64,000 nt of DNA, from the NCBI GenBank assembly GCA_902784865.1, contig CACZWL010000001.1, positions 62,001 to 126,000 on the forward strand. Direction: 5' to 3'. How positions within the stretch are numbered: the stretch's first letter is position 1; each line of letters starts with the position of its first letter. Origin of the DNA: an uncultured Bacteroidota bacterium. Lineage in GTDB: Bacteria; Bacteroidota; Bacteroidia; Bacteroidales; P3. Shown here piece by piece: positions 10,388-63,270 of this stretch. Under the pieces are notes generated by a model. That model made no database searches. It was given only the letters and a program-made list of their open reading frames with translations, and was not told the origin of the DNA. The position numbers and the translations under genes were made by a program.

Positions 10388-12478
10388 ATGAATTACGCCA
10401 CCATTATCTCCAAACGGCTGGAAATCAGCCAGCGGCAGGTCGAGCGGACCATCGAACTGCTCCAGCAGGGTGCCACCGTGCCCTTCATAGCGCGCTACCG
10501 CAAGGAAGCCACCGGCAGCCTCAACGAGGTGCAGATCGCCGCCATCCGCGACCTCCTGCTGCGCCTGCAGGAACTCGACAAGCGCCGCGACGCCATCCTC
10601 CAGAGCATCGACGAGCAGGGCAAGCTCAGCCCCGAGCTGCGCGCCCGGATCGAGGCCGTGGATACCCTCGCCGAGCTCGAGGACCTATACCTGCCATACC
10701 GCCCCAAGCGCCGCACCCGCGCCACCATCGCCATCGAGCGCGGCTACGAGCCCGTGGCCGACGCCATAGCCCGCGGCCAGTGGCAGGCCTGGGACGACGA
10801 CGCCCTTCAGGGCGCCCGCGACATACTGGCCGAGCGCTTCAGCGACGACGCCCGCTGCCGCAACCGCGTGCGCAACATCTTCCGCCGCCGCGCCAAGCTC
10901 TCCTCGGCCCTCGCCCGCGGCGTCAAGGACGACGACGAGCGCCTCGCCAAGTTCGAGTCCTGGGTCGACTGGAGCGAGCCCGCCCACCGCGCTCCCTCGC
11001 ACCGCATCCTCGCCCTCTTCCGCGGCGAGGAGGCCGGCGTCCTCCGCGTCCACGTCCGCCCCGAGCAGGTGGATGTCGGAGAGTGGAAAACGGAGAGCGG
11101 GGGACTCAGGACAGAGTGCCGCGAGCAGCTCGAGCTGGCGGCCGAGGACGCCTACAAGCGCCTCATCGAACCCTCCATCGAGACCGAATTCCGCAACCAG
11201 CTCAAGGAGCGTGCCGACCGCGAGGCCATACGCGTCTTCGCCGAGAACCTCCGCCAGCTCCTCCTCGCCGCACCCATGGGGCAGAAGCGCACCCTCGCCA
11301 TCGACCCCGGCTTCCGCACCGGCTGCAAGGTCGTCTGCCTCGATGCCCAAGGCCAACTGCTTCACAACGAGACCATCTACCCCTTCACCTCCGTCCGCGA
11401 GGAGCGTGCCGCCGTCAACAAGCTCGAGGCCTTGGTCGAGGCCTTCCAAATCGAAGCCATCGCCATCGGCAACGGCACCGCCGGACGCGAGACCGAGGAG
11501 GTCGTCCAGCGCTGCCGCTTCAACCGCAAGGTGCTGGCCGTCAGCGTCAGCGAAGCCGGCGCGTCGGTCTATAGCGCCAGCGACGTCGCCCGCCGCGAGT
11601 TCCCCGACTACGACGTCACCGTCCGCGGCGCCGTCTCTATCGGCCGACGTCTCATGGACCCGCTCTCCGAACTTGTCAAGATCGACCCCAAGAGCATCGG
11701 CGTCGGCCAGTATCAGCACGACGTCGACCAGCGCATGCTCGCCGCCAGCCTCGCCGACACCGTCGAGAGTTGCGTCAACAGCGTGGGCGTCGAACTCAAC
11801 ACCGCCAGCCGCGAGCTCCTCTCCTACGTCAGCGGCATCGGCCCCGCCCTGGCCGACAAGATTGTGGCCCACCGCAACAGCAACGGCGCCTTCGCCGACC
11901 GCCAGGCGCTGCGCAAGGTCAAAGGGCTCGGCGACAAGGCCTTCGAGCAGTGCGCCGGCTTCCTCCGTGTGCGCGAGAGCACCAACCCGCTGGACAGGAG
12001 CGCCGTCCACCCCGAGCGCTACGCCCTCGTCGAGCGTATGGCCGCATCGGTCGGCGCCGACGTCGACACCCTCATGCAAGACAAGGAGTTACGCGCGCGT
12101 ATCATAATAGAAGACTACGTCAGCGACGACTGCGGCTTGCCCACCCTGCAGGACATCATGCGCGAGCTCGACAAGCCCGGCCTCGACCCGCGCGCCAAGT
12201 TCGAGGTCTTCGAGTTCGACAAGAACGTCACCCGCCTCGAGGACGTCCGCGAGGGCATGGTCCTCCCCGGCATCGTCACCAACATCACGGCCTTCGGCGC
12301 CTTCGTCGACATCGGCGTCCACCAGGACGGCCTCGTCCACGTCAGCCAGATGGCCAACCGCCGCGTCAGCGACCCCGCCGAGGTTGTCCACCTCCACCAG
12401 CACCTCAAGGTGAAGGTGCTCGAGGTGGACATGCGCCGCCGCCGCATCAGCCTCACACTCAAAGGGGTGAAAGATTAG
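10388..12478 (+). CDS. tex: Tex family S1 RNA-binding protein
   Basis: A 696-residue cytoplasmic nucleic-acid-binding protein of the Tex/Spt6-core type, linked to transcription and RNA turnover. Domains in order: an N-terminal helix-turn-helix region (ISKRLEISQRQVERTIELLQ), a YqgF-like fold (KRTLAIDPGFRTGCKVVCLD, about residue 325), helix-hairpin-helix repeats (YVSGIGPALADKIV and RKVKGLGDKAFEQC, about 480-530) and a C-terminal S1 domain (VLPGIVTNITAFGAFVDIGV). The ATG at 10388 is used because the earlier in-frame ATG (10364) lies upstream of the -7 box. Near residue 235 a short repeat string adds VGEWKTESGGLRTE, and the final residues and stop codon are formed by another repeat string. It is convergent with the hmu operon. 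Confidence 0.95.
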   Translation: MNYATIISKRLEISQRQVERTIELLQQGATVPFIARYRKEATGSLNEVQIAAIRDLLLRLQELDKRRDAILQSIDEQGKLSPELRARIEAVDTLAELEDLYLPYRPKRRTRATIAIERGYEPVADAIARGQWQAWDDDALQGARDILAERFSDDARCRNRVRNIFRRRAKLSSALARGVKDDDERLAKFESWVDWSEPAHRAPSHRILALFRGEEAGVLRVHVRPEQVDVGEWKTESGGLRTECREQLELAAEDAYKRLIEPSIETEFRNQLKERADREAIRVFAENLRQLLLAAPMGQKRTLAIDPGFRTGCKVVCLDAQGQLLHNETIYPFTSVREERAAVNKLEALVEAFQIEAIAIGNGTAGRETEEVVQRCRFNRKVLAVSVSEAGASVYSASDVARREFPDYDVTVRGAVSIGRRLMDPLSELVKIDPKSIGVGQYQHDVDQRMLAASLADTVESCVNSVGVELNTASRELLSYVSGIGPALADKIVAHRNSNGAFADRQALRKVKGLGDKAFEQCAGFLRVRESTNPLDRSAVHPERYALVERMAASVGADVDTLMQDKELRARIIIEDYVSDDCGLPTLQDIMRELDKPGLDPRAKFEVFEFDKNVTRLEDVREGMVLPGIVTNITAFGAFVDIGVHQDGLVHVSQMANRRVSDPAEVVHLHQHLKVKVLEVDMRRRRISLTLKGVKD
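11077..11111 (+). repeat. In-frame heptamer string inside tex
   Basis: Five 7-bp words in a row: CGGAGAG, TGGAAAA, CGGAGAG, CGGGGGA, CTCAGGA. They encode part of GEWKTESGGLRTE, which reads as an insertion between conserved Tex segments. The same word family appears at 27597 and 55215. Confidence 0.65.
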
Positions 12479-12500
12479 GAATTAGGGATTAGGAATTTTG
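12473..12500 (+). repeat. GATTAGG heptamer string covering the tex stop codon
   Basis: GATTAGGAATTAGGGATTAG is followed by a further GAATT unit. The first unit supplies the last codon and TAG stop of tex. The same words recur at 23414-23472. Confidence 0.6.
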
Positions 12501-12518
12501 GGCTGCAATCTCCAGCCA

Positions 12519-12563
12519 CGTAACAGGGTGATTGTTAGTACTCTCTAGGTACCAACTCTTACT
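12519..12563 (+). repeat. 45-bp dispersed repeat, copy 1
   Basis: It matches 21507-21551 at 43 of 45 positions (core ACAGGGTGATTGTTAGTACT followed by CTCTAGGTA). Both copies lie just downstream of a leftward or convergent gene end. The inverted core word TAGAGAGTA also occurs at about 340. Confidence 0.8.
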
Positions 12564-12576
12564 ATGGTCTTACCTC

Positions 12577-12632
12577 CCATAACCCATAACCTATAACCCA
12601 TAACATATCAACATATCAACCCATAACCCATC
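12577..12632 (+). repeat. CCCATAA heptamer string
   Basis: Tandem CCCATAA units with CATATCAA variants between the convergent ends of tex and hmuV. A related ATATCAAC string is at about 56870, upstream of the HxlR gene. Confidence 0.6.
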
Positions 12633-12637
12633 CCCCT

Positions 12638-12970
12638 CTACTCCGGAATGTAGACCACCTCGCCGTTCTCCAGCTCGTAGGCGGTGCCCACCCTGCGGCC
12701 GCGCGGCGAGTCGGAGGTGGACTGGTCGTCGCTCGGCGTGTAGCGGTTGATGCGCTCGCCCTCCTTGGTGATGATTTCCATGTTTTCCTTGCCCGGGTTC
12801 TTCACGATGGTGAAGTCCTCCTTCGAGAAGAGTTCCGTCATCTGGTAGCGCCCCACCAGGGCCACCATCAGGGCGACGGCGAACACCATGGCTACGTCGA
12901 AGAGGTTGCCCACGACGGACATCGGGTCCATGTCGCCATCGTCCCCCAGGTATCTGCGGCGGCGTCTCAT
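12638..12970 (-). CDS. hmuV: HmuV-like DUF2149 membrane protein
   Basis: A 110-residue protein with one transmembrane segment (VAMVFAVALMVALVGRY, about residues 26-42) followed by a small soluble domain ending GTAYELENGEVVYIPE. This is the DUF2149 type that accompanies MotA/TolQ/ExbB proteins and CobN-like chelatases in Bacteroidota haem loci (hmuV of Porphyromonas). An ExbD/TolR-like partner role is inferred from its position. It overlaps hmuU by 4 nt and is the last gene of the operon. No terminator hairpin is visible after it, only repeats. It is not the ABC-ATPase also called HmuV in proteobacteria. Confidence 0.75.
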   Translation of the reverse strand: MRRRRRYLGDDGDMDPMSVVGNLFDVAMVFAVALMVALVGRYQMTELFSKEDFTIVKNPGKENMEIITKEGERINRYTPSDDQSTSDSPRGRRVGTAYELENGEVVYIPE

Positions 12971-13572
12971 AGGGCTTGCAGTTTTTGTTCCTGCAACTGG
13001 GCTACGAATTCCAGCGCCCCCAGATCGCGGCGGTACCAGCGCTGCTTGGCCTGCAGCACGACGAAGCCGACGGCGGCCGAGAAGAGGCCGACTACCGTCG
13101 TGGCGAAGGCCACCTGCATATTGTAGGCCATCGAGGCGATGTCACCCGTGGAGAGGCCCACCAGCGCCGGACCCATCGGTATCAGTGTGCCCATCAGGCC
13201 GAGCATCGGACCCATCTTGGAGAGGGTCTTGCCGAGCGCCATGTCGCGCTGGGCCTCCAGCTCGAAGTCGGCCAGCGCCTTCTCCACGAGGGGCAGATTG
13301 TTGGCCTCCAGTATACTGCGCAATGCGGTGGCCATGGGCTGGCGGCTCTTGAGGGTGCCCAGCCGGGCCTCGAGGTCGGGGAGTTGGGTGTGCCCTTTCA
13401 GCCCCGCCAGCGGTTCGGCGAGGGCGGCCTGCAGACGGCGCGTGTCCATATAGTGGCCGAACCAGCCGCCCAGGAACACCAAGGCGCGGAGGAAGAACCA
13501 GATGAGCAGCACGACCACCGGGACCAGCAGGCCGGTGGAAATCCAATAGAGGGTGTCGGTGATGTAGTGCAT
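12967..13572 (-). CDS. hmuU: HmuU-like MotA/TolQ/ExbB proton-channel protein
   Basis: A 201-residue polytopic membrane protein with an N-terminal helix (STGLLVPVVVLLIWFFLRAL) and two C-terminal helices joined by LSKMGPMLGLMGTLIPMGPA and YNMQVAFATTVVGLFSAAVG, the MotA/TolQ/ExbB signature. It is inferred to energise a dedicated transport step, with HmuV and HmuT, for the TonB-dependent receptor or the periplasmic HmuS. It overlaps hmuV by 4 nt and starts 21 bp after hmuT; the short gap holds a small repeat string. Confidence 0.8.
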   Translation of the reverse strand: MHYITDTLYWISTGLLVPVVVLLIWFFLRALVFLGGWFGHYMDTRRLQAALAEPLAGLKGHTQLPDLEARLGTLKSRQPMATALRSILEANNLPLVEKALADFELEAQRDMALGKTLSKMGPMLGLMGTLIPMGPALVGLSTGDIASMAYNMQVAFATTVVGLFSAAVGFVVLQAKQRWYRRDLGALEFVAQLQEQKLQAL

Positions 13573-13593
13573 GTGAAAATGATGAATTTTGAA

Positions 13594-14274
13594 TTAATGG
13601 CGGTGTTTCTTTTTCTTGCGGTAGAGGAGAAGTCCGACGGCGGCAGCCGCGAGGCAGAGGGCGACGACCGAGGCGAGCTGTGGCCACTGCGGCGAGGCGA
13701 TGCCGCGGACCGCCGTGCGGCCATTGACGGTGGCCACGATGCCCAGGGCGCCGATGATGAGGTTGAGCACGAAGAGCAGCTCGAGGCGCAGTTCGCCCTC
13801 CGGCAGCAGCCAGCGGAAGAGCCACGCCAGCGTCGGCACCAGCAGGAGTATGCCCGCCGCCATGCCCCACGAGACGAGGGGGAAGGAGGCGCCGGTGAGC
13901 GTGAAGAGCAGGTAGGTGAGCAGGCTGAAAAGCGTCAGGAAGAAGACCACGCCGGGGAAGAACTCCAGCAGCACCTTCATCCACCGCCGTCGGCCAATTG
14001 CCGACTGCCAACTGCCGACTGCCGACCAACAGTAAGCCACCATCAGCGCCACCTCGAGGGTGATCATCACGGCGGCATCGGCCATGAGGGCGGGATTCTG
14101 GAGGAAGTCGGCAATTTGGGTCTTGCTCTGTGCCGCCGCCAAGGGCCATGCCAGCCCGGTGGCTACGGCAGCCACCACCGCCCACAGCCACCACCACAAG
14201 GGGCGGCGCAGGCTGAGCTTGAGGGCGAAGGTCAGTGTGCCCAGCAGCAGGATGATGACAACGACGGACTGCAT
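13594..14274 (-). CDS. hmuT: HmuT-like polytopic membrane protein
   Basis: A 226-residue hydrophobic protein with about six transmembrane segments (MQSVVVIILLLGTLTFALKL, LWWWLWAVVAAVATGLAWPL, FFPGVVFFLTLFSLLTYLLF and others) and a lysine/histidine-rich C-terminus (RKKKKHRH). Its position between the CobN-like gene and the ExbB-like gene identifies it as the third membrane component of the hmuSTUV set; biochemical function is unknown. Around residue 85 the stretch SAVGSWQSAIGRRR is encoded by a heptamer string and is probably an insertion in a loop. Confidence 0.7.
   Translation of the reverse strand: MQSVVVIILLLGTLTFALKLSLRRPLWWWLWAVVAAVATGLAWPLAAAQSKTQIADFLQNPALMADAAVMITLEVALMVAYCWSAVGSWQSAIGRRRWMKVLLEFFPGVVFFLTLFSLLTYLLFTLTGASFPLVSWGMAAGILLLVPTLAWLFRWLLPEGELRLELLFVLNLIIGALGIVATVNGRTAVRGIASPQWPQLASVVALCLAAAAVGLLLYRKKKKHRH
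13993..14027 (-). repeat. In-frame heptamer string inside hmuT
   Basis: Five tandem words on the plus strand: GCCAATT, GCCGACT, GCCAACT, GCCGACT, GCCGACC. They are translated on the minus strand as SAVGSWQSAIG. Confidence 0.7.
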
Positions 14275-14297
14275 GTGAGTGTTTCTGTGTCAGGTAA

Positions 14298-17200
14298 TTA
14301 GTGGTTGCGGTCGGCACTGCGGCGGCGCAGCACGAATACAGCCGCAATGAGGGCTGCGACCACGCCCACGATGACGAGAATGTTGCTGAGGGAATTGCGC
14401 TGTTGGTCGGTGTCGTTCAAGGTCTCCTTGCTGAGGCGCATGGCGTTCTGGTCGCTGCTGGCGGCGTCGGCCCGGGGCGCGGTGGCGAGGGGCTGCAGGG
14501 TGGCGAGTTGCTGTGAGGAGGTCTTCCACAACCCCTTGTCGGCGGCCTGCTTCATGGTGGCGGCCATCTGGCGCAGGGCGTCGGGGTTGTGCTGGTCGAA
14601 GAACTGGCGCAAGCCCAGCCCGTAGGCGTCGTTGATATACACGTCGTAGATCTGATCCCACATCTCGTTGTCGATGGCGCGGGGCTTCATGACGTTCCAG
14701 CCGAAGGTGTTGGACACGAGGTCGGCAAAGCCGTCGGCAGCGGTGGCGCCGGCCTTCATCTGCTCGCGTATGTAGTTGGGGTTGAAGAGGGTGGTGCGGC
14801 TCTCCACACCGATAGCCTCCTTCACCTCCTGCATGCGGGCGTTGTTGCGGTTGCGGTAGTCGGAGAGGTAGGCGTCGGGATCCTTGCCGGTGACGTGGCG
14901 CACCGCGAGGTTCATGCCGCCCATGAACTCGTAGACGTGGTCGAGCGAGAGGGCGTCCCAGGTGTTGCTCTGGCGGGGCTGCACGATGGCGTCGGTGCCC
15001 GAGAGGGCAGCCTCGAAGGCGTGCTGGCGCAGCGATTGCCACTGCTCCTGGCTGCCGTAGTAGGCGCCCATGTTGTTGAGGTAGACCTCGGCGATGTCTT
15101 CGTCGGAGTTCCATGCGTCGCCATTCTGCACCATAGCCTGTATGCCGGTGCCGTAGTTGCCGTCCACCCCGCCGAAGACGCGGTAGGCGGCCACGGCACG
15201 GGCCTCGCTCGGCGACACACCGCTCTCCACAAGGCGGCGCTCGCTCTCGCGGACGCCTAGGGCCACGTGGTTGGGCGTGTTGCCGTCGTCGGCTGCGGCA
15301 GCAATGCCTACGGCGCGGTCGATGAGGAAAAGGCGCGAGGCGGCCAGGTCGCGCAGCTGGCCGCTGGTCTGCACACAGACGTCGATACGGGGACGTCCGA
15401 GTTCGGCCGTGGGGATGAGGCGCAGGTCGGTGACGCGTCCGAAAGCGTCGCGTACGGGCTCCACGCCGAGCATGTAGAGCACCTGGGCGATGGTGGCACC
15501 CTCGGTCTCGATGAACTCGCCACTCCACAGCGTGTAGCTCACCTTCTGTGGCAGGCTGTCGTTGTGGCGCTGGCGATAGAGTCGGATAGTATTGTCGGCC
15601 AGTAGTTTGCCCTTCTCCCAAGCCGACTCGGAGGGGGTATTCTCGGCGTTGATGCCATAGAGGTTGCGGCCTGTGGGCAGCACGTTGGGGTTCACTATGG
15701 GGTCGCCGCCGGGCGACGGGGGAGTGTAGCGCCCGTCGAGGGCATCTACCAGTGCGTTAAGCTCGGCCTGGGGCGACGAGAGGAGCAGCTGCCTGTAGCG
15801 TCCGACGTTGAGGATGGTGCGTTCCACCTCCATGATAGCCTCGCAAAGGGCGATGTCGCGGCGTTGTGCTTCATCGACTTTCGCAGTTGTCCTTTCACTC
15901 CCTTTCACCTCCTTTTCACTCCCTTTCACTCCTGCATCGGCTTTCATGGCGGCCTCCATCTTGGCCAGGGCTGAGTCGCTGGCCCCCATCATTTTGGCCA
16001 TCTTGAGGGCCTTGTCGGGGTTGAGGTTGCGCCCCATGCGGCGCATGAATTGCTTCATCTTCGATGGGGGCTGGGCGGTGGAGTCGGGGCGGCTGCGGTC
16101 GGTGTGCATGGTGGCGGCTGCGGGCATCTCGTCGGCCATCGAGAGCATCATGCTCATCATGTCGACGGGTTTGCGCTCTTCATGCATCTGGCGAGCATGC
16201 TCCAGCTCGGCGGCGGTGATGCCGGCCACCTGGCAGACGGTGGCGTCGGTGGCTGGCGAGGCCAGCAGGCGGCCTGCCAACTGACGGGCGGGATTGATGT
16301 AGCGCTGGGTGAAGAGGCTCTTGCGGCGCTCGAGGTCGGGCGCGGCTTTCCCTCGCAGTTTATCTAATGCCAAAAGACTGTAGGCGATGGGATCGACGGT
16401 CATGGAATAGACGCTGCTCTCGATGCTCTTGGCCTCGTAGGGGACGCCGAGGATGTAGGGGCGCCCCATCATCTTCTCCTCGGAGAGTTCCTCGGCGAAG
16501 TTGTCGATGCGGTTGATGTCGGCCTCGGGATAGGGGACGGCGAGGTTGCTGTCCAGTTCAAGCGGGCGGTGGATGCCCATGTGGACGGCGAGACGCTTCA
16601 CCTCGAGGGCAGCCTGGTCGGTCGGTTTGTTGTGTTCAAGGAGGTGATAGTATGTCTTGACGGCCTCGGCCAGCTGGCGGTACTCGTTGCGCACACCGCT
16701 CTCCATGAAGGGGGCGGTGAGGTGGGAGACGAGCGAGGCGTAGGTGCGCCGCTTGGCGATGAGGGCTTCGCCGACGTTGCCTGTAGTGTAGAGGTAGAAG
16801 TGAGGCAGGGGGCCGACGAGGCGGTCGGGCCAGTCGTTGTCGCAGAGGGCCACCTGCTTCTGTGGCGTGTATTCGAGGCTGCCGTGGGTGCCGAAGTGGA
16901 TGATGGCGTCGGCGCGGAAGTCCTCGCGCACCCAGCGGTAGGCTTCGATGTAGCGTTGCGGAGGCTCCTTGCCGGTGCCGTGGACAATCTTGAACTCATT
17001 GTCGCCCTCGCCGGCTGGCGGCTGGGGGATGAGGACTACATTGCCCAGCTCGAGGCGAGCCACGCCGTCGGCATCAAGAGAGGGCAGCTGGCGGACAAGG
17101 CTTTCAGCGCTGGCCGGGAGGTCGATGCGGTAGCCCTCGGCTTTGAGCCGCGCGAGGAAGTTGTACAGCGAAGGAACTACATCCATGCTGCTGGCCATGA

Positions 17201-20257: not shown

Positions 20258-20886
20258 AAAGGATAGCGGTAGCGGATGGTTACATAGCCTTTGACGGCGG
20301 CTTCGTTGGCATAGCCGGTGAACTGGAGGGCGGCGCACGAGCCGTCGGCCAGGCGGAGGAGGTAGACGTCGCCCGAGAGGGTGTAGATGGGCGGCATCTC
20401 GGCGGTGTTCACATCGAGCCAGCGCGAAAGTACGGGGTTGACCTTCGAGGGTGCGTAGCCGAGGTAGCCCTCCATCATGGTGGACATGTCGATGACCACC
20501 TGCGAGTCCGCATCGGCCGTGAAGGCCAGGCCTGCGGTGTCGGGCAGCGAAGTAAGCTCACCGACATACTTGGCCGCCACCACAGTGGCGGCGCCGCTCC
20601 GGGTCTTCACATCGTAGCGGTGCAGCGCCAGGTCCCAGGCGTGGGGCTCCGGCTGGCCGAGGGGGATGGAGGCGGTGTCGGTGGAGCGGGTGTGCAGGTC
20701 GAGGTATGTCCAGCGGGTGTAGCTGCGGGCGTCTATATATATGGTGCCGCCGCGACCGTCGGCATCGCGCTCGATGAAGCCCATAGGCGAACCCTTGGCG
20801 GGCTCGTCGTAGAGCCCGCCGAAGAGTCCGTCGCAACTTGCCAGCGCCAGCAGAGCCGGCAGGAGCATGAGGGGTTTGAGGTTCAC
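20254..20886 (-). CDS. hmuY: HmuY-family haem-binding lipoprotein
   Basis: A 210-residue lipoprotein (MNLKPLMLLPALLALASC, lipobox cysteine about residue 18). The body fits the HmuY family: a beta-rich fold with TRWTYLDLHTRS, AWDLALHRYDVKTRSG and the C-terminal AALQFTGYANEAAVKGYVTI. HmuY proteins are surface haemophores that hand haem to HmuR; which residues would ligate haem here cannot be decided without alignment, and ligands differ among species. It sits 10 bp after the calycin-like lipoprotein and overlaps hmuR by 4 nt. Confidence 0.88.
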   Translation of the reverse strand: MNLKPLMLLPALLALASCDGLFGGLYDEPAKGSPMGFIERDADGRGGTIYIDARSYTRWTYLDLHTRSTDTASIPLGQPEPHAWDLALHRYDVKTRSGAATVVAAKYVGELTSLPDTAGLAFTADADSQVVIDMSTMMEGYLGYAPSKVNPVLSRWLDVNTAEMPPIYTLSGDVYLLRLADGSCAALQFTGYANEAAVKGYVTIRYRYPL

Positions 20887-20896
20887 CGCTGTGGAC

Positions 20897-21337: not shown

Positions 21338-21408
21338 CAGTGTGTTTGTGTGTTTGTGGTTTGACAATGAGTTGTTTAGCGATGATGCTGCAGTCATCCG
21401 TCGCACCA

Positions 21409-21416
21409 CAAAATTA
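21409..21416 (-). promoter_or_regulatory. Putative -7 box (TAATTTTG) of the hmu operon
   Basis: TAATTTTG on the minus strand lies about 70 bp upstream of the calycin-like gene, the first of seven tightly spaced genes. No Fur-type palindrome was recognised around it. Confidence 0.5.
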
Positions 21417-21506
21417 CAATCACTTATCGAATTGCCGCTTCACCACTATTGGTGATTTCGATTTTTTGCCCTTCATTTTGGCAAAAAAACACCCTGCTGC
21501 CAGGTA

Positions 21507-21551: not shown

Positions 21552-21585
21552 CTTCTCTTACCCCCCAAGGCCGATGCCAGATCCC

Positions 21586-23412
21586 TCACTCGGCCACCGT
21601 CACGAAGGGGATGCGGGCCTGCAGTCCTTCGCTTTCGGCCACGTAGAGGAGGTCCTGCTCGAGGCGCGAGAGGGGCTGGAGGTGCCGCTTGGCGGTGCGC
21701 CAGCGGAGGGCGAGGCGCCCTTTGGCAAGGAGGTTCAGGTCGTCGTCCACCTGCTCGCCCAGCAACTCGCTGATCTGGGTCCAAGTGTCTTTCTCTTTGG
21801 GGAATTCTTTGATGCTATAGTCCTTGATGCCGGCCTTCTCGGCAGCGATGGAGAGGGCGAGGTCGAGGCCGCCGAGGGTGTCCACCAGACCGATGCCCTT
21901 GGCGTCGGCGCCCGTCCACACGCGCCCGCGCGCGATACTATGTATTTGCTCATACGTCTTGCCGCGCCCCTCGGCCACGCGCCCCACGAAAACCTTGTAG
22001 AAGTCCTCCACGTTGCGCTCCATCATGGCCATCGCCGTGGGGGAGAGGGGTCGCAGGATGGTAAGCCCGTTGGCGTTGCGGTTGGTGCTGACGGTGTCGG
22101 TGTTCAGACCCAGTTTCTGGCGCATCAGTTTGCCCACGTTGGGCAGCGTGGCGAAGACACCGATGGAGCCGGTGACGGTGGTGGGCTGGGCCACGATGCA
22201 GTGGGCCATGCACGACATCTCGTAGCCCGCCGAGGCGGCGAGGTCGCCCATGGAGACGATGACGGGTTTTTTCTCTCGCGCCTGCATGACGGCGTGGGTC
22301 ATGCTCTCGCTGGCCGTGGCGGAGCCGCCGGGGGAGTTGACGCGCAACACGATGGCTTTTACCGACTTGTCTTCCGTTGCCTGACGCAGGGCGCGCACAA
22401 TGTCGTCGCCGTAGACGGCGGTGTTCATACTGCGCGAGGTGCCGTCCACCACATTGCCTTCGGCATAGATGAGGGCGATACGGTCTTTGATTTTTGATTT
22501 TTGATTTTTGATTTCTGATTTTTGAGTGGCGGCGTACTGGTCGAGCGGTAGCAGGTGCTTGCCGGCATACTGGTTTTTGAGCACGCCGCGGACGTCCTCT
22601 TCGAAGCAGAGCGCGTCGACGAGGCCGCTGCGCTTGGCGTCGTCGGCGAGGTAGCCGCTGAGGTTGTCCGCAATCTGGTTGAGTTTGGCCACCTCAAGGG
22701 TGCGGCTGGCGGCGATGGCCTCGGTGGCAGTGCGCCAGATGCTTGATATATAGGTGCGTATCTGCTCGCGGTTGGCGGCCGACATGTGGTTGAGGGTGTA
22801 CACCTCGCCGGCACTCTTGTAGGCGCAACTCTCCGGGCGGATAAGCTGCATCTCGACGCCCAGCTTGTCCAGCAGGTCTTTGTAGTACATCACCTCGGCG
22901 CCCATGCCGCGGAAGTCGACCATGCCGGCGGGATGCAGGCAGAGGCGGTCGGCGAGCGAGGCCACGTAGTAGCCCCCTTGGGAGTAGCCAGTGGCGTAGG
23001 CGACGACGGGCTTGCCGCTGTCGCGGAAGTGCTGGAGGGCATCGCGCAGCTCGGTGAGCGAGCCCCACGAGAGGGTGCTGGCGCCAGCGTCTTTGAGGTA
23101 GATGCCGCTGATACGGTCGTCGGTGGCGGCGGCGCGGATGGCGCTGGTGGCGTCCACCAGACCCGTGCTTTTGCCCTCGCCCAGGCTCATCATCAGGCCC
23201 GTGGGCGTACGGTCACCGCTGATGCGGCTGAGGTCGACGGTCAGAAACGAACTCGAGCGCACCACCGCGGTGTCGGCACTGCTCATGCTGCCCAGCGAGG
23301 CCACCATGGCTATCATGATGATAAAGAAAAGGATGCCGCTGATGACGGACACTATCACCACGCCCAGCGCCGAGGCCAGCATGGTCATACCAAAGGAGAG
23401 GGGCTTTTTCAT
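21586..23412 (-). CDS. sppA: Signal peptide peptidase SppA, long (67-kDa) type
   Basis: A 608-residue membrane-anchored serine protease that degrades cleaved signal peptides. N-terminal anchor at about residues 7-38 (SALGVVIVSVISGILFFIIM). Two tandem peptidase-S49 repeats: the first supplies the lysine (ESCAYKSAGEVYTLN), the second the serine (MGDLAASAGYEMS), the Ser-Lys dyad arrangement of the E. coli 67-kDa enzyme. VNSPGGSATASE is also conserved. Between the repeats, about residue 300, lies QKSEIKNQKSKIKD, encoded by a heptamer string. It is downstream of fba, separated by a repeat-made hairpin. Confidence 0.92.
   Translation of the reverse strand: MKKPLSFGMTMLASALGVVIVSVISGILFFIIMIAMVASLGSMSSADTAVVRSSSFLTVDLSRISGDRTPTGLMMSLGEGKSTGLVDATSAIRAAATDDRISGIYLKDAGASTLSWGSLTELRDALQHFRDSGKPVVAYATGYSQGGYYVASLADRLCLHPAGMVDFRGMGAEVMYYKDLLDKLGVEMQLIRPESCAYKSAGEVYTLNHMSAANREQIRTYISSIWRTATEAIAASRTLEVAKLNQIADNLSGYLADDAKRSGLVDALCFEEDVRGVLKNQYAGKHLLPLDQYAATQKSEIKNQKSKIKDRIALIYAEGNVVDGTSRSMNTAVYGDDIVRALRQATEDKSVKAIVLRVNSPGGSATASESMTHAVMQAREKKPVIVSMGDLAASAGYEMSCMAHCIVAQPTTVTGSIGVFATLPNVGKLMRQKLGLNTDTVSTNRNANGLTILRPLSPTAMAMMERNVEDFYKVFVGRVAEGRGKTYEQIHSIARGRVWTGADAKGIGLVDTLGGLDLALSIAAEKAGIKDYSIKEFPKEKDTWTQISELLGEQVDDDLNLLAKGRLALRWRTAKRHLQPLSRLEQDLLYVAESEGLQARIPFVTVAE
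22486..22527 (-). repeat. In-frame AAAATCA heptamer string inside sppA
   Basis: About five tandem units near AAAATCA on the coding strand. Because 7 is not a multiple of 3 the peptide repeats every 7 residues (QKSEIKN, QKSKIKD). It lies between the two S49 domains. Confidence 0.75.
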
Positions 23413-23413
23413 G

Positions 23414-23518
23414 ATTGGGGATTAGGGATTAGGGATTAGGAATTATGAATTAGGGATTGGAGATTAGGAATTGCTATACGAATCTTCTAGATGGTAATTC
23501 CTGATCTCCAATCCCTAA
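23414..23518. repeat. ATTAGGG heptamers forming a 23-bp-arm hairpin
   Basis: Tandem ATTAGGG/ATTAGGA words run from 23414 to 23472. An inverted copy at 23496-23518 pairs with 23450-23472 at 22 of 23 positions around a 23-nt loop. It occupies the fba-sppA gap. There is no T tract, so terminator function is doubtful; it could shield or separate the two messages. Confidence 0.7.
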
Positions 23519-23530
23519 TGCCTGAATGTA

Positions 23531-26705: not shown

Positions 26706-28577
26706 ATGGTCAATGTCGGCACATATTTCAGTCGCTTGCGCGAGCTGGTGTCCCTGGAGCTCGAGGAGGAGCGGCGGGCGTACCGCCGCAGCCTTGAGCG
26801 CCGTTCGCTGACGGGCGCTATCCGCGAGCCTGCCTGCCGTTACCCCGTGAGTTTGGGCAGCAGTGGGCGCGGTCCGCTGGGTCAGCTCACGCTGGACCTC
26901 CGTTTCGACCTCGACGAGGACGAGGTGGAGCTGGAGTTCGAACCGGGGCACCCCGCCACGCTCTTCTACCTCACTGAGGGTGGCGCCTCCGAGGTGCCGC
27001 ATCAGGCCTATGTCGAGCGCGTGGGCCCCGGCATGCTGACTGTCAGCCTGCCCTCGCAGGCTGCGTTGCAGAGCATCCGCGCTTTGTCCGACCGCCACCT
27101 GCTGGGTGTCCAGCTGGGGGTGGACAATACGTCGTACCGTGTGATGGAGGATGCCCTGAAAGAGGCCGAACGCCGCGAGGACGAGCGTTTCGTGCGCCTG
27201 CGCAACGTCCTGCTGGGCAATGCGGAGCCGGGCTTCCGGCATCTGCCGCGCCTCTCTTACCCATGGCTGAATGCCAGTCAGCAGGAGGCCATACAGCGCG
27301 TGGTGGAGTGCCAGGAGGTGAGCGTGGTCCATGGCCCACCGGGTACGGGCAAGACGACAACCCTCGTCGAGGCTATCATGGAGACGCTGCAGCGCGAGAC
27401 GCAGGTGCTGGTGTGTGCCCCGAGCAATGCCGCCGTCGACTGGATCAGCGAGCAGCTGATGCGGCGTGGCGTGCATGTGCTGCGTGTGGGTAACCCGTTG
27501 AGGATGAGTAGCGAGATGCTGGACTGCAGCTATGAGAGGCGCTACGCGGCGCATCCCGATTACCACGAGTTGTGGAACATACGCAAGGCGCTGAACGGCG
27601 AGCGGCGGACGGAGAGCGGCGAGCGGAGGCTGAAGCTGCAGAAACGGGCTATGGAGTTGGAAATCAAGATTAACGCCGACCTTTTCGAGGCAGCCCGCGT
27701 GGTGAGTTGCACCCTCATCGGCTCGGCCTACCGCGTGATGGAGCGCCGACGTTTCAGCACCCTTTTCATCGACGAGGCCGCGCAAGCGCTGGAGCCTGCC
27801 TGCTGGGCTGCGCTGCTGCGCGCGGACCGCGTGGTGATGGGTGGCGACCACCAGCAGTTGCCACCGACGGTGAAGAGCGTCGAGGCGGCGCGCGGGGGGC
27901 TTGCAACGACGCTGATGCAGCGGATTGTCGCGCTGCACCCGCGCTGCGTCAGCCTGCTGACGACACAGTACCGTATGAACGAAGCCATTATGCGGTTCCC
28001 CTCGCGGTGGTTCTATGGGGGGCGCCTGCGTGCGGCACCCGAAGTGGCCCACCGGCTGGTGTCGCCGCTGGACGAGCCGCTGATGTGGATTGACACGTCG
28101 GACCTCGGCGGCGAGGAACGCCAGAATGCCTCGATGAGCCTGAGCAACAGCGAGGAGGCACGCCTGGTGATCCACACGCTGCGCGACTATATCGAGATGA
28201 TAACGCCGCAGAAGGTTGAGTCGGAGAGAATCGATTTCGGCATCATCACCCCATACCGCGGCCAGGCGCGCCTGATACGTCGCCTGCTGAAGATGCAGCA
28301 CTATTTCCGCCGTCTGCGGCGCCACGTGACGGTGGGAACGGTGGACGGATTCCAAGGGCAGGAGCGCGACGTCATCATCATCTCGCTCGTGCGCGACAAT
28401 GCGGAAGGCAACATCGGTTTCCTCCGCGACCTGCGGAGGATGAACGTGGCCATAACGCGCGCCCGCATGAAACTGATTATCGTGGGCAATGCGCAGACGC
28501 TCGGACGCCACCCCTTTTACCGACAACTGATGGAGGAGGTTCGGAGTCATGAGTTATGTCGATTGTCACCACAATGA
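26706..28577 (+). CDS. SF1 Upf1/DNA2-like helicase
   Basis: A 623-residue superfamily-1B helicase (AAA_11/AAA_12 type, like SMUBP2/Dna2). N-terminal beta-barrel-like region up to about residue 190, then Q-motif NASQQEAIQRVVE, Walker A VVHGPPGTGKTTTLVEAI, motif Ia VCAPSNAAVDWI, Walker B FIDEAAQALEP, motif III VMGGDHQQLPPTV, motif IV/V TTQYRMNEAIMRFPS and TVDGFQGQERDVIIISLVR, and motif VI NVAITRARMKLIIVG. All catalytic motifs are present. The start at 26706 (MVNVGTYFSRL) is used because upstream sequence is AT-rich and non-coding in character. RKALNGERRTESGERRLKLQ around residue 300 is a heptamer-string insertion. Confidence 0.88.
   Translation: MVNVGTYFSRLRELVSLELEEERRAYRRSLERRSLTGAIREPACRYPVSLGSSGRGPLGQLTLDLRFDLDEDEVELEFEPGHPATLFYLTEGGASEVPHQAYVERVGPGMLTVSLPSQAALQSIRALSDRHLLGVQLGVDNTSYRVMEDALKEAERREDERFVRLRNVLLGNAEPGFRHLPRLSYPWLNASQQEAIQRVVECQEVSVVHGPPGTGKTTTLVEAIMETLQRETQVLVCAPSNAAVDWISEQLMRRGVHVLRVGNPLRMSSEMLDCSYERRYAAHPDYHELWNIRKALNGERRTESGERRLKLQKRAMELEIKINADLFEAARVVSCTLIGSAYRVMERRRFSTLFIDEAAQALEPACWAALLRADRVVMGGDHQQLPPTVKSVEAARGGLATTLMQRIVALHPRCVSLLTTQYRMNEAIMRFPSRWFYGGRLRAAPEVAHRLVSPLDEPLMWIDTSDLGGEERQNASMSLSNSEEARLVIHTLRDYIEMITPQKVESERIDFGIITPYRGQARLIRRLLKMQHYFRRLRRHVTVGTVDGFQGQERDVIIISLVRDNAEGNIGFLRDLRRMNVAITRARMKLIIVGNAQTLGRHPFYRQLMEEVRSHELCRLSPQ
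27597..27631 (+). repeat. In-frame GGMGAGC heptamer string inside the helicase gene
   Basis: Five tandem words: GGCGAGC, GGCGGAC, GGAGAGC, GGCGAGC, GGAGGCT, encoding GERRTESGERR. The same family occurs in tex (11077) and between genes at 55215. Confidence 0.75.
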
Positions 28578-53622: not shown

Positions 53623-53689
53623 ATAATTGGGCTGCGATTCAGGTTCGCAAACCGATTTCCTTAGGAATCTCTTCTTTCGAAATCGGGTG

Positions 53690-53697
53690 CAAAAATA
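53690..53697 (-). promoter_or_regulatory. -7 box (TATTTTTG) upstream of tRNA-Asn
   Basis: TATTTTTG on the minus strand, 68 bp before the mature 5' end. The rest of 53623-53923 holds no recognisable gene. Confidence 0.5.
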
Positions 53698-53923
53698 CTA
53701 ACATTTCGGATACTGACCAAATTTTTTTTAAAATATTTTGCATCGTGATGTGCAAATTGTTGTTTTTGTGAGAGATGTGAGGTGAAATATTTTTCTGTCC
53801 GGCAGCTGCGAAGGGCTTCAATCCGAGGCTGTAGGTCCGTGCTGCGGCCATTTTTGGGCTCTGGCCGGATGCCGTTTTCGCTAGATGATGTTTTCTGGTT
53901 GAAAATCAGTGATATCGGAGGTA

Positions 53924-55214: not shown

Positions 55215-55260
55215 GTGTGGAGGACGGGCAACGGAGAGCGGAGGACGGAGAGCGGAGGGG
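55215..55260 (+). repeat. GGAGAGC heptamer string between genes
   Basis: Tandem 7-bp words (GTGTGGA, GGACGGG, CAACGGA, GAGCGGA, GGACGGA, GAGCGGA) in the araC-cupin gap, the same family as the in-frame strings in tex and the helicase. Confidence 0.7.
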
Positions 55261-56856: not shown

Positions 56857-56891
56857 ATCGTCATATCAACTTATCAACATATCAACAACTG

Positions 56892-57266: not shown

Positions 57267-58044
57267 GAATATAGACTTCTGCATCCGCTACCTGCTGGAA
57301 ATTGAAAATTCAAAATTGGAAATTGAAACGGGTATCCCCAACGACCTGCAAGGGAAACAGCGCCTGCTGAGGGCGCTGATGAACATCTGGGAACCGCAGC
57401 CGCTGAACGAGGCGTTTCTCCGTGCGCAGGACGCCGAGTTGCAGGCGCAGCTGCAGGACAAGGGAGTAGTGGAAATTGAAAATTCGAAATTGAAGATTGA
57501 AATTTGGCAGGGCGATATCACGCGCCTCAAGGTGGATGCCATCGTCAACGCCGCTAACAGCCGTGGCCTCGGTTGCTGGCACCCCCTGCATGCCTGCATC
57601 GACAATGCCATTCATTCGGCCGCAGGCCTGCAGCTGCGCCAAGAGTGCAACCGCATTCTGCAAGGGCAGACCGTTGCTACCGGTGGCGCCATCATCACCC
57701 CGGCCTACAACCTGCCCTGCCGCCATGTGCTCCACACCGTAGGGCCTATCATCCCCAATGGTGTGCCCACCCGCGAGCAGGAAGAACAGCTGGCCAACTG
57801 CTACCGCAACTGCCTCGACCTTGCCGAGGCTAACGGATGCCGCAGCATCGCCTTCTGCTGCATCTCCACGGGCGAGTTCCACTTCCCCAACCGCCGCGCT
57901 GCCGAGATAGCTGTCAAGACAGTTAAGGACTGCACCACCACTTACGCATTAACACACTCACACAATAACGCACTCACTGTGGTTTTCAACGTTTTCAAGG
58001 ACATCGACTATGACATCTACCGCGAACTTCTCGCAAAGAATTGA
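57253..58044 (+). CDS. Zinc-containing macrodomain ADP-ribosyl hydrolase
   Basis: A 263-residue protein. Residues about 85-240 are a macrodomain: IWQGDITRLKVDAIVNAANS, the zinc-macrodomain signature GLGCWHPLHACIDNAIHSAAG, GQTVATGGAIITPAYNL, HTVGPIIPNG and CCISTGEFHFPNRRAAEIAV. This is the Zn-macro type found beside class-M sirtuins, removing ADP-ribose added by them. The sirtuin gene overlaps its 3' end by 35 nt. Heptamer strings encode EIENSKLEIE (residues 16-25), EIENSKLKIE (74-83) and TYALTHSHNNALT near the C-terminus. Confidence 0.9.
   Translation: MDRIENIDFCIRYLLEIENSKLEIETGIPNDLQGKQRLLRALMNIWEPQPLNEAFLRAQDAELQAQLQDKGVVEIENSKLKIEIWQGDITRLKVDAIVNAANSRGLGCWHPLHACIDNAIHSAAGLQLRQECNRILQGQTVATGGAIITPAYNLPCRHVLHTVGPIIPNGVPTREQEEQLANCYRNCLDLAEANGCRSIAFCCISTGEFHFPNRRAAEIAVKTVKDCTTTYALTHSHNNALTVVFNVFKDIDYDIYRELLAKN
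57298..57329 (+). repeat. In-frame GAAAATT heptamer string, macrodomain gene, first site
   Basis: GAAATT, GAAAATT, CAAAATT, GGAAATT in tandem, encoding EIENSKLEIE. A second string of the same family lies at 57471-57505 in the same gene. Confidence 0.75.
57471..57505 (+). repeat. In-frame GAAAATT heptamer string, macrodomain gene, second site
   Basis: GGAAATT, GAAAATT, CGAAATT, GAAGATT, GAAATTT, encoding EIENSKLKIEI immediately before the macrodomain core. Confidence 0.75.
57941..57979 (+). repeat. In-frame ACGCATTA/ACACACTC string, macrodomain gene, third site
   Basis: TTACGCATTAACACACTCAC followed by ACAATAACGCACTCAC encodes YALTHSHNNALT. Reverse-complement words (GCGTTAATG) form the string at 63211. 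Confidence 0.55.
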
Positions 58045-58962: not shown

Positions 58963-59613
58963 ATGAACATCAAGTCCCTCCTGCTGGCCGCAGTGGCCAC
59001 CCTCGGAATTGTCTCGTGCAACGGACAGGCCGTCAAACAGAATACCACAGTGAAGCAATCAAACAATCAGGAAATGAATAAGATAGTTATCTTCTTCTCG
59101 CACGCTGGCGACAACTACAGTGTGGGCAACATCGAGGTGGGTAACACCAAGATTGTAGCCGACTACATCAGCGAATTTACGGGTGCCGACCAGTACGAAA
59201 TCGTCACCCACAAGTACGACGGTATGGCCTATATGCCGCTCATCGAGCTGGCCAAGAACGAGGCCGCCGACGGCGAGCTGCCGCCCTACGAGGGCGAGGC
59301 TCCGGACCTCAGCCAGTACGACACCGTGTTTATCGGCGGTCCCGTCTGGTGGGGCACCTACCCTCAGGTCATGTTCACCCTCTTCCGCGACATCAACCTC
59401 GACGGCAAGACGGTCATCCCCTTCACCACCCACGAAGGAAGCGGCCTGGCCAACTGCGTCAGCGACGTGAAGAAAGCCTTCCCGAAGGCAAAAGTCACCG
59501 CCGGCTGGAGCATCTACGGCCACGAAGTGCAGGCCGATCGCGACCGCAGTGGAGCGAACGGCGCCTCTGGCAGCGGCAAAGCCAAAGTGGAGAAATGGAT
59601 TAAGGGATTATAA
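58963..59613 (+). CDS. Flavodoxin-like lipoprotein
   Basis: A 216-residue protein with a lipoprotein signal (MNIKSLLLAAVATLGIVSC) and a flavodoxin domain: IVIFFSHAGDNYSVGNIEVG (FMN phosphate loop region), YDTVFIGGPVWWGTYPQVMF, VIPFTTHEGSGLANCVSDVK. An exported FMN-binding protein would be an electron carrier or quinone reductase in the periplasm. It is 12 bp before the hydrolase lipoprotein. Confidence 0.85.
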   Translation: MNIKSLLLAAVATLGIVSCNGQAVKQNTTVKQSNNQEMNKIVIFFSHAGDNYSVGNIEVGNTKIVADYISEFTGADQYEIVTHKYDGMAYMPLIELAKNEAADGELPPYEGEAPDLSQYDTVFIGGPVWWGTYPQVMFTLFRDINLDGKTVIPFTTHEGSGLANCVSDVKKAFPKAKVTAGWSIYGHEVQADRDRSGANGASGSGKAKVEKWIKGL

Positions 59614-59624
59614 TATCAAACAGA

Positions 59625-62025: not shown

Positions 62026-62028
62026 GTC

Positions 62029-63225
62029 ATGAAAAGAATCTGTACTTTTCTGATGGTTGCGCTGGCTACGGCGGCGATGGTCGCCTGCGGCGGCAAGAGC
62101 AATGATACAAACAAAGACATGAATACACTCAGCTTTGACGACTTGCAGGCGACATACATGTCGCAGATAGCCTGCAATGCGGCACGCGGCGACCAGTCGA
62201 AACTCGGCGTCGCCATGGGTTACGGCTTGCGTGCCGGCCTCACCGCAAACCAAATCAAGGAAGCCCTCTCGCAGCTCTATGCCTACATGGGCTTCCCCCG
62301 TTCGCTCAACGCGCTGGGAACGTTGCAGAAGGTGATGAAAACGTTCGACGACGAGGGCGCCCCTTACGAACTCGGCCCCGAGGCGTCGCCGATGCCTGCG
62401 GGCTACGACGCCCTGAAGCAGGGCACGGAGGTGCAGACCAAACTCAGCGGTCAGCCTTTCAACTATGCGTTCTGCCCTGCCGAGGACTATTATCTCAAGG
62501 CTCATCTCTTTGGCGACATCTTTGCCCGTGACGTGCTGACCCATGCCGACCGTGAGCTGGTGTCCGTCAGCGCCCTGAGTGGTCTCGAGGGCGTGATGCC
62601 GCAACTGCAGGCCCATGTGCGCGGTGCACTCAATATGGGCGTCACCGAGGAACAGCTGGACGGCATCGTGCATGCGTTGGCGCAGGATGCTCTTGCGGCC
62701 GAAAGCCAGCGTTGTCAAGCGGCCATAGCCGCCGTCAAGGGTGAGCAGCAGGTCGTGTCGCCGTCGGCCTATCCGCTGGGCAAACCCAACGACGCCTACG
62801 CCAAATACTTCATCGGCCAGAGCTACCTGGCGGTGCTCGACACGGTGAGCGGCCTCTGCAACGTCACCTTCAAGCCCTGCTGCCGCAACAACTGGCACAT
62901 CCACCACAACGCCGTCCAGGTGCTGGTCTGCGTCAGCGGTCGCGGATGGTATCAGGAGTGGGGCAAGGAGCCTGTCGAGCTGACGCCTGGCACGGTGGTC
63001 ACTGTCCCCGCCGGCACCAAGCACTGGCACGGCGCCGCCGCCGACAGCTGGATGCAGCACCTGGCCTACTTCACCGCCCAGCAGTCCGGCTTCCGCAACG
63101 AACTGATGGAGCAGCGAGAGCAGAGTGATGCTCGCATCAACTCTGCCGAGTCGCGACAGAAGTCGAGTGAAACTCAATGGCTCGAGTTTGTCGACGATGA
63201 ACAATATAATGCGTTAGGGCGTTAA
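62029..63225 (+). CDS. Carboxymuconolactone-decarboxylase/cupin fusion lipoprotein
   Basis: A 398-residue lipoprotein (MKRICTFLMVALATAAMVAC). Two CMD-like units (GLRAGLTANQIKEALSQLYA with GFPRSLNALGTL; LSGLEGVMPQLQAHVRGALN with GVTEEQLDGIVHAL) precede a cupin (NWHIHHNAVQVLVCVSGRGW, VVTVPAGTKHWHGAA). The CxxC redox pair of AhpD-type CMD proteins is absent from both units, while the cupin keeps its metal histidines. The last residues and stop codon are made by a GCGTTA repeat string. Substrate unknown. Confidence 0.85.
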   Translation: MKRICTFLMVALATAAMVACGGKSNDTNKDMNTLSFDDLQATYMSQIACNAARGDQSKLGVAMGYGLRAGLTANQIKEALSQLYAYMGFPRSLNALGTLQKVMKTFDDEGAPYELGPEASPMPAGYDALKQGTEVQTKLSGQPFNYAFCPAEDYYLKAHLFGDIFARDVLTHADRELVSVSALSGLEGVMPQLQAHVRGALNMGVTEEQLDGIVHALAQDALAAESQRCQAAIAAVKGEQQVVSPSAYPLGKPNDAYAKYFIGQSYLAVLDTVSGLCNVTFKPCCRNNWHIHHNAVQVLVCVSGRGWYQEWGKEPVELTPGTVVTVPAGTKHWHGAAADSWMQHLAYFTAQQSGFRNELMEQREQSDARINSAESRQKSSETQWLEFVDDEQYNALGR

Positions 63226-63270
63226 TGTGTTAATGCGTTAGTGTTTAAGGTTTAAAGTTTAAGATTATAA
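63211..63270 (+). repeat. GCGTTAG / GTTTAAG string covering a stop codon
   Basis: Tandem GCGTTAG, GGCGTTAAT, GTGTTAAT, GCGTTAG, then GTTTAAG units. The first words supply the codons ALGR and the TAA stop of the CMD-cupin gene. Confidence 0.7.

Follow-up and report, generated by a model that had tools for sequence, protein, structure and literature searches.

What produces the short tandem arrays, mostly of 7-bp units, that lie within genes, on stop codons and between genes along a 64,000-nucleotide stretch of the genome of an uncultured Bacteroidales bacterium? We refer to this whole stretch (G000:C1:62001-126000) as the window; its own genome, G000, comprises 2.40 Mb in 43 contigs, G001 and similar labels denote the genomes of relatives, and coordinates such as L036:6433 give a locus label and a position. 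An earlier note on the window had named thirteen sites with such arrays and had described their words as unrelated families. We found that the arrays are real, that they are often the arms of hairpins with a fixed polarity, and that related words occur in remote phyla, the last two features having been missed in the earlier note. We suggest, tentatively, that small dispersed palindromes gave rise to the arrays as arms lengthened by slippage, some of which persist only as remnants.

Excess, polarity and vocabulary of the arrays

Tandem Repeats Finder (TRF, minimum score 30) called arrays in the window at 12 of the 13 named sites (starts at 12474, 12576, 13993, 15891, 22486, 23413, 27596, 55231, 57299, 57472, 57939 and 63207). 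The thirteenth, in tex, was not called, but is an eroded array with residual 7-bp periodicity (lag-7 identity of 0.54, compared to a 99th percentile of 0.44 for 60-bp windows). The shared 7-bp unit that the note had proposed is present at 9 of the 12 called sites, some of which were also called at 14 or 21, but the arrays at 57939 and 63207 have 8/16-bp units (the latter closing with a 7-bp run), and that at 15891 has a 10-bp unit. Site 57472 was called at periods 6 and 14 as well.

We compared 424 kb of the own genome (the window and 18 further 20-kb stretches, together 17.6% of the 2.40 Mb) to 10 dinucleotide shuffles, which do not retain codon structure, with a TRF minimum score of 40. There were 14 arrays of period 7 (four in the window and ten outside the earlier reader's view), compared to 0.0 per shuffle, such that the claim of heptamer arrays far above shuffled sequence is borne out and the arrays qualify, as repeats beyond chance, as heptameric long simple sequence repeats. 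Excesses were also found at period 8 (3 vs 0.1), period 10 (6 vs 0.8), period 11 (31 vs 1.8) and multiples of three, such as period 9 (13 vs 0.4) and period 12 (20 vs 1.8); there was no enrichment at period 5 (0 vs 0) or 13 (1 vs 2.4). Samples from relatives likewise contained period-7 arrays, with 30 in 280 kb of G001, 14 in 60 kb of G055 and 5 in 60 kb of G011, a sample that also held seven arrays of period 11.

The period-11 arrays include a second dispersed class, with the unit TCTGGTAGGTR and often GTTCGACTC between units, found in the window at 10072-10100, 35199-35224 and 45417-45457, and elsewhere at L040:7382, L041:18708 and other places. Further recurring 11-mer words are TGTTCTTCGTC, CTTGGTTCTGC and GGTATAGAT.

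We examined neighbouring arrays of the same word in two collections: a many-phyla set of 117 loci seeded by ATTAGGR, and a viral-contig set of 71 loci seeded by ATTAGGR and AAAATTG. Word counts in both are biased by this seeding, and part of the word sharing in them comes from the seeds and their one-step variants; open reading frames (ORFs) for coding, distance and pair analyses were crude longest-ORF calls. Among neighbours within 200 bp in the many-phyla set (consensus distance <=1), 33 were inverted and 12 direct, and all 33 inverted pairs had the G-rich arm first (G-first), so that in either arm the G-rich strand reads 5' to 3' toward the loop; with a consensus distance of up to 2, 44 of 47 inverted pairs were G-first. 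In the viral contigs, which were searched after the polarity rule had been framed, we found 17 inverted and 3 direct neighbours, with all 17 inverted pairs (30 of 30 at distance 2) G-first. In the pooled data, pairs 0-50 bp apart comprised 32 G-first, 0 C-first and 4 direct, while those 2-4 kb apart comprised 19 G-first, 19 C-first and 48 direct; thus, the polarity acts over short distances only. When pairs at <=100 bp were recounted without redundancy, with extra genus loci included, some of them fetched because they held pairs, there were 51 G-first, 1 C-first and 14 direct. Since words without GG retained the polarity in this recount (14 G-first, 1 C-first), quadruplexes are not needed for it.

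Some hairpins share more than their repeats. A family with a 10-bp unit, of the form (GGGAGTGAAA)n GGACAAATG - loop - GTCC(TTTCACTCCC)n, is present in many copies in several members of the genus, and the copies at L067, L068, L070, L071 and L072 all have the common cap GGACAAATG...GTCC; the element of this type in the window has many matches of ~90% in G001, G002, G006 and G007. Five of six AAAATTG hairpins fetched from G039 (L350, L352-L355; not L351) share, by eye, the loop core GAAATGYGGYNACC...CCCGTTTC. Both the shared cap and the shared core are as expected of dispersed palindromes. Moreover, in 8 of 401 arrays, of differing words, the G-rich arm is succeeded by GGCTGRCGC, compared to 0.64 expected, with control counts of 1 upstream and 3 downstream on the other strand; this motif, which was chosen after the fact, is possibly a word-independent cap. 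Its sites are L363, L220, L227, L198, L201, L359, L229 and L061, of which L198 and L201 are related copies.

The words themselves recur. Close variants of AAAATTG, TTTTTGA, ATTAGGR, CGGAGAG and GTTTAAG, and of the 8-mers TAACGCAT and CATATCAA, are each found at at least two unrelated sites in the own genome. Across the 59 genomes of the genus, AAAATTGAAAATTGAAA had 695 exact matches (overlapping units counted) in 40 genomes, compared to 10 for the reversed word. These matches were patchy, with 112 in G036, 87 in G005, 77 in G002, 53 in G001, 37 in the own genome and none in 19 of the 59; ATTAGGR was found in 5 of the 59, with 25 matches in G001. Thus, lineages undergo bursts with their own words. 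Among 296 genomes of the phylum, ATTAGGA×3 was present in 15 and its reversed control in 0. AAAATTG×3 was present in 3 of the 296 (the own genome included), as was its reversed word, and hence a shared preference is not valid for every word. ATTAGGR arrays occur in at least 117 stretches, compared to ~0.015 expected by chance (a hand estimate with equal base frequencies), and their hosts, among the matches listed, include Chloroflexi, Planctomycetes, Verrucomicrobia, Acidobacteria, Clostridia, Cyanobacteria, Patescibacteria, Bacteroidetes and others.

Nor are the word families unrelated, as had been proposed, because they share a grammar: 54 of 92 genus arrays have a C-less strand with a single purine block, compared to 28.0±3.1 for shuffled letters, and 52 of these 54 have one T block while 2 are all purine. 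The most common C-less type, R5T2, accounts for 25 arrays and the most common word, AAAATTG, for 14 of the 92, while 28 arrays hold C. C-less words as a whole make up 63 of the 92 arrays (48.6±3.1 if shuffled). The effect is smaller when distinct words are counted (21 of 42 vs 14.1±1.9 in the genus; 29 of 114 vs 23.0±2.7 in the many-phyla set). Fifteen words are common to the two sets, compared to 5.2±1.8 for shuffled letters, with two of the fifteen being seed words and some others one-step seed variants. Runs of three or more G per unit, as in quadruplex-forming repeats, are rare, with GGG in only 3 of the 42 genus words listed. We also considered words selected to anneal to themselves and prime fold-back synthesis, an idea that we rejected on counts of palindromic tetramers (67 vs 64.4±5.2) and an unchanged capacity for self-pairing.

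Gene edges and overwritten linkers

Intergenic arrays lie close to genes, at a median distance of 3 bp in the genus (27 placed) and 10 bp in the many-phyla set (178 placed), compared to ~32 for random placement. The G strand pointed away from the gene in 148 of 195 cases in the many-phyla set and 22 of 34 in the genus set, in which start codons showed no such bias (7 away, 9 toward). Since stop codons are more common in the G form of the words (64 of 92) than in the C form (36 of 92), some of the edge bias can be a product of the ORF calls themselves. Letter shuffling yields 61.5 and 25.8 for the two forms, and we rejected a choice of words for their stop codons on the G-form value. Over half of the genus arrays (55 of 92) are coding, but 89% of bases are coding, and thus intergenic DNA is still favoured.

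The arrays of the window are listed here, with the basis for each at the end of the line.

11077..11130, + strand: eroded heptamer array of the CGGAGAG type, in the linker of tex (VGEWKTESGGLRTECRE); lag-7 identity, shared 11-mer
12474..12497, + strand: ATTAGGR array, the first unit of which provides the tex stop codon; TRF, sequence
12576..12631, - strand: CCCATAA array in which CATATCAA 8-mers are embedded, immediately 3' of a DUF2149 gene; TRF, Pfam
13993..14023, - strand: GCCGACT/GCCAACT array inside a 226-aa ORF (13594-14274); TRF
15884..15933, - strand: in-frame 10-mer element, (GGGAGTGAAA)n with a TTGTCC cap, in a CobN-like gene (GVKGSEKEVKGSER); frame, Pfam CobN
22486..22525, - strand: AAAATCA array (QKSEIKNQKSKIK) in the sppA inter-domain linker; alignment to relatives
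23413..23472, + strand: long arm of an ATTAGGR hairpin, adjoining the sppA ATG; TRF, inverted partner
23496..23519, - strand: short arm of the ATTAGGR hairpin (AATTCCTGATCTCCAATCCCTAAT on the + strand); inverted pair, fold
27593..27628, + strand: CGGAGAG/CGGCGAG array in a helicase gene (NGERRTESGERR); comparison with relatives
55231..55258, + strand: intergenic ACGGAGAGCGGAGG array; TRF
56862..56887, + strand: array of the CATATCAA 8-mer within the leader of an HxlR-type regulator gene, between TATCTTTG and the ATG; TRF, Pfam
57299..57328, + strand: AAAATTG array (EIENSKLEIE) in a macrodomain gene; alignment
57472..57504, + strand: AAAATTG array (EIENSKLKIE) in the macrodomain gene; alignment
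57939..57977, + strand: 8/16-bp array (CACTCACACAATAACG type) in the macrodomain gene; TRF
63207..63263, + strand: GCGTTAAT 8-mer and GTTTAAG 7-mer arrays spanning the stop codon of the gene at 62029-63225; TRF

Comparison with relatives indicates that, in genes, the arrays mostly overwrite linkers of variable length, as seen at most sites compared. The tex linker is 54 nt in the own genome and 57-60 nt in the 15 relatives measured (15/29 measured), with that of G001 longer than our own; the tex array shares an exact 11-mer, ACGGAGAGCGG, with the arrays at 27.6 kb and 55.2 kb. The aligned block in sppA is 1-4 aa longer in the own genome than in all seven relatives found, and unrelated in sequence. 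At the macrodomain sites, the own genome has 30 nt at 57299, compared to 18 nt in both G001 and G008, and 33 nt at 57472, compared to 63 nt in G001, 42 nt in G008 and 24 nt in G011. The helicase is 3 aa shorter in four of five relatives, but the fifth, G002, has GERRVTSGERR, a like array. Thus, the expectation in the earlier note that orthologues would lack the added peptides is borne out at tex, sppA and the macrodomain gene, while the helicase array is not specific to the own genome, and clean in-frame insertion, which it took to be the usual event, is represented by one near-clean case, an in-frame 24-bp array at L036:14979 that is absent from G001.

Arrays also differ in unit number and in state of preservation. 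At L036:6433, where the array resembles that at 57939 (as does another at L052:13999), the own genome and G001 differ by 24 bp, exactly three 8-bp units; this one clear case of unit-number variation, a difference between species, agrees with the copy-number change that the earlier note had anticipated. A TTTCACC array at L044:12264-12292, which encodes the core of a signal-peptide-like N-terminus, is identical in the own genome and G001, while an ACTCCTC array at L044:14178 is clean in G001 and eroded in the own genome. Thus, from the unit-step difference, the near-clean insertion, and the identical and eroded arrays, we conclude that arrays arise, change by units, persist and decay.

Two signal-peptide-like N-termini, as read from the sequence, have an array-coded hydrophobic core: FFTFHLLPFTS (L044:12264-12292) and FSIFNFQFSIS (L050:9570-9600).

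The window has its own inverted pair in the sppA leader. Folded as single-stranded DNA, this hairpin has an energy of -20.3 kcal/mol, compared to -8.0±2.1 for shuffles (z -5.8), and G001 has a like inverted ATTAGGR pair at the matching place upstream of sppA. The two arms are near-identical in the own genome, while in G001 they agree only near the loop.

Possible origins of the arrays

We assign a probability of roughly 0.45 to the reading that small dispersed palindromes have grown arms by slippage, and that the arrays are these arms or what is left of them. A word would arrive at a site in the form of a short patch or palindrome, and DNA polymerase would then add or remove whole units of about 7 bp each, most easily when it enters a hairpin while synthesising the purine-rich, C-less strand. 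The result would be two arms, with the G strand of each running 5' to 3' towards the loop. Selection would purge arrays that break genes, such that survivors would be found in linkers, signal peptides, leaders and stop codons, in frame where they are coding, and would decay by point mutation. The fixed polarity, the short distance over which it holds and the fact that arms are not mirror copies in general are consistent with arm growth during hairpin entry.

Several results weigh against this proposal. In random genus stretches, inverted pairs were not in excess (3 inverted, all G-first, and 5 direct), and most arrays have no partner within 200 bp. The mirror register was better in 37, worse in 26 and tied in 8 of 71 scored pairs (75 found), and on these counts we rejected the idea that second arms are generally made by fold-back copying; pairs that do resemble mirror copies are those at L104 (two pairs) and L181 and the sppA hairpins of the own genome and G001. 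Words were no richer in self-pairing than shuffled words, only 8 of the 401 arrays are followed by GGCTGRCGC, and no mobilising enzyme was found, with neither PF00078 nor Y1_Tnp profile matches tracking the arrays.

The rival explanations overlap, and their odds are not meant to total one. Ordinary slippage of chance seeds at each site, without dispersal and with the likeness of words due to mutational bias, could account for the unit-step difference at L036:6433, fits with heptamers being the most common long simple repeats in many bacteria (Mrázek 2007, as cited in PMC4679880 and PMC4692102), and agrees with AAAATTG being no more common beyond the genus than its reversed control (2 other genomes vs 3). 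We consider it unlikely, given 37 AAAATTG matches in the own genome vs none in 19 of 59 genus genomes, 695 matches vs 10 for the reversed word in the genus, ATTAGGA in 15 of 296 genomes vs 0 of 296 reversed, and inverted pairs of fixed polarity, although this last argument comes from pairs and leaves single arrays unaffected. Selection on RNA or DNA structure, in which G-quadruplexes, terminators or G-less leaders hold gene-edge arrays in one orientation, would explain why intergenic arrays abut genes (medians of 3 or 10 bp vs ~32) and why the G strand points away from them (148/195 and 22/34), as reported for quadruplex words by Rehm et al. 2015 (PMC4692102). This account is rather doubtful, since words without GG keep the polarity (14 G-first, 1 C-first, some loci having been fetched for pairs), start codons in the genus are unbiased (7 away, 9 toward), stop codons are not enriched in G-form words (64 vs 61.5), and part of the edge bias may come from ORF calling.

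Two further possibilities invoke a dedicated enzyme. If the hairpins were mobile palindromes of the repetitive extragenic palindrome (REP)/REP-associated tyrosine transposase (RAYT) or miniature inverted-repeat transposable element (MITE) kind, moved by a Y1 or other transposase with the heptamer arms as part of the element, we would expect features such as the many-copy 10-mer hairpins with their conserved cap, the core shared by 5 of 6 G039 hairpins, and the GGCTGRCGC motif trailing arms of different words (8 of 401, vs 0.64 expected). REP/RAYT elements are also marked by a conserved tetranucleotide at the base of the stem, with GTAG/CGTC tags. Y1_Tnp matches were indeed present in array-rich genomes (2 in the own genome, 7 in G001, and 3 each in G002, G006 and G011). 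Nevertheless, Y1_Tnp did not track array number over 22 genomes: there was no match in G005, G036 and G054, which have 87, 112 and 18 AAAATTG matches (these three genomes being incomplete, at 72-85%), while G003, G004, G017, G019, G027, G047 and G052 have Y1_Tnp matches and no AAAATTG. We therefore rejected a Y1/RAYT transposase as the mobiliser, and since most arrays are also one-armed and without a shared core, mobile elements of this kind seem an unlikely source overall. Alternatively, a telomerase-like or self-templating polymerase could extend free 3' ends, at breaks or gaps, with C-less repeats, after which the ends are joined; as both ends would have the same G-rich repeat, the product would be a G-rich arm, filler and a C-rich arm, as in a head-to-head telomere fusion, with a few bases lost at the break. 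Such 3'-end addition would account for the G-first polarity and its short range, the overwritten linkers and the excess of C-less words (63 vs 48.6±3.1 genus arrays), and bacterial DRT10 makes tandem-repeat cDNA as telomerase does (PMC12632851). Moreover, the reverse transcriptase profile PF00078 has matches in the array-bearing genomes G011, G020, G035 and G055. In contrast, PF00078 had no match in the array-rich own genome, G001 and G002, in a search with a model that matched in only 3 of 14 control genomes and may miss DRT/Abi enzymes, and it is present in G013, G047 and G056, which have 1, 0 and 0 AAAATTG matches. A resident PF00078 reverse transcriptase is thus rejected as a requirement, and templated synthesis, as raised in the earlier note, was weakly tested, with the matches in G011, G020 and G035 in its favour and the lack of them in the three array-rich genomes against it. 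Many words per genome would also require many templates, and no break was observed; we hold 3'-end addition to be improbable. We give similarly little credence to a more general scheme, in which a process common to many phyla writes C-less, purine-block heptamers on free 3' ends or on new strands entering hairpins, leaves single arrays or telomere-fusion-like pairs with a partly shared vocabulary, and in some lineages rewrites linkers and signal peptides in bursts.

How do the arrays relate to known repeats? The short tandemly repeated repetitive (STRR) sequences of heterocystous cyanobacteria are dispersed heptanucleotide tandem arrays with CCCCARTn-type words. Words of this type are not among the genus words listed, and ATTAGGR matches in two Nostoc records are, among the matches listed, the only link seen to them. 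The resemblance to cyanobacterial heptanucleotide repeats drawn in the earlier note is upheld by two reports. Rehm et al. 2015 (PMC4692102) describe quadruplex-forming heptamers, GGGAATC in Xanthomonas and GGGGA(C/T)T in Nostoc, with inverted pairs that converge (70 cases in Xcc and 75 in Xac, but few in Nostoc) and a G strand that is in sense orientation downstream of stops and antisense upstream of starts. Our arrays are similar in their 7-bp unit, dispersal, variable unit number and convergent inverted pairs, with the G strand away from genes, although the edge component is open to ORF-calling bias and random genus stretches have no excess of inverted pairs. They differ from those repeats in having many words per genome, mostly without quadruplex G runs, in that 55 of 92 genus arrays are coding, and in having pair polarity in loci from many phyla. 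MacGregor 2015 (PMC4679880) describes repeats of the heptamer TAACTGA in phyla that are distant from each other and include Bacteroidetes; the repeats frequently lie directly upstream of start codons, are interspersed with other heptamers and show indels in 7-nt steps. These too are heptamer direct repeats in distant phyla, but a single word was studied, and we found no pair polarity or word grammar in the portion consulted. According to both reports, Mrázek 2007 found heptanucleotides to be the most common unit in most repeat-rich genomes and proposed slippage; as conveyed there, that work does not describe a vocabulary common to several genomes, a polarity of hairpins or the overwriting of linkers. 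In the DRT10 report (PMC12632851), telomerase-like synthesis of tandem repeats, with 9-nt or other units, yields protein-primed cDNA in phage defence, but the part consulted describes no chromosomal arrays, and our own genome has no PF00078 match.

Thus, we regard the arrays as belonging with the heptameric repeats described in Mrázek 2007, Rehm 2015 and MacGregor 2015, but in a broader form that takes in non-quadruplex words and coding use; in searches of the openly licensed literature, we found no account of non-quadruplex pair polarity, word grammar or linker overwriting. If the polarity rule proves true in an unbiased census, it would set heptamer repeats apart from G-quadruplex biology and suggest a strand-specific event of DNA synthesis, amenable to bench experiments. 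The old puzzle of the bacterial preference for seven-base repeats would become directly testable, and the arrays would offer a concrete route for in-frame rewriting of bacterial linkers and signal peptides within a genus.

The tex-sppA region and other features of the window

The orientation of sppA is flipped between species. It is opposite to tex in the own genome (window 10364-24574), G001 and G006, and co-directional and adjacent to tex in G007, G008, G011, G014 and G023; in the own genome, a segment of roughly 9 kb with the CobN-like and DUF2149 genes lies between the two. We considered the arrays as rearrangement breakpoints here, but rejected this idea because the unflipped junction of G011 carries a different array. 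The tex linker of G014 has an in-frame palindromic insert, TCCATAAATC...GATTTATGGA (L054, G014:C4, about 93897-93985), reminiscent of the palindromic elements found in Rickettsia genes.

At the remaining sites, the ORF at 13594-14274 has no Pfam match, and its label hmuT comes from the earlier reader only. The orthologous left flank of the 55231 array was not found in G001 or G008, and hence no empty site is demonstrated. The leader of the HxlR-type regulator, in which we take TATCTTTG to be promoter-like, is shorter and unrelated in G008 and not alignable on the left in G001. The 63207 arrays are absent from G011, in which almost no sequence separates the two genes; alignment to G001 covered the left side only.

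Two further observations concern tRNA genes. An AT-rich, promoter-like stretch of ~60 bp by tRNA-Asn (window 53672-53740) has many matches in the own and related genomes. ARAGORN placed a tRNA-Thr at 59240-59323, inside the ORF at 58963-59613, without Rfam support, and this is probably a false call.

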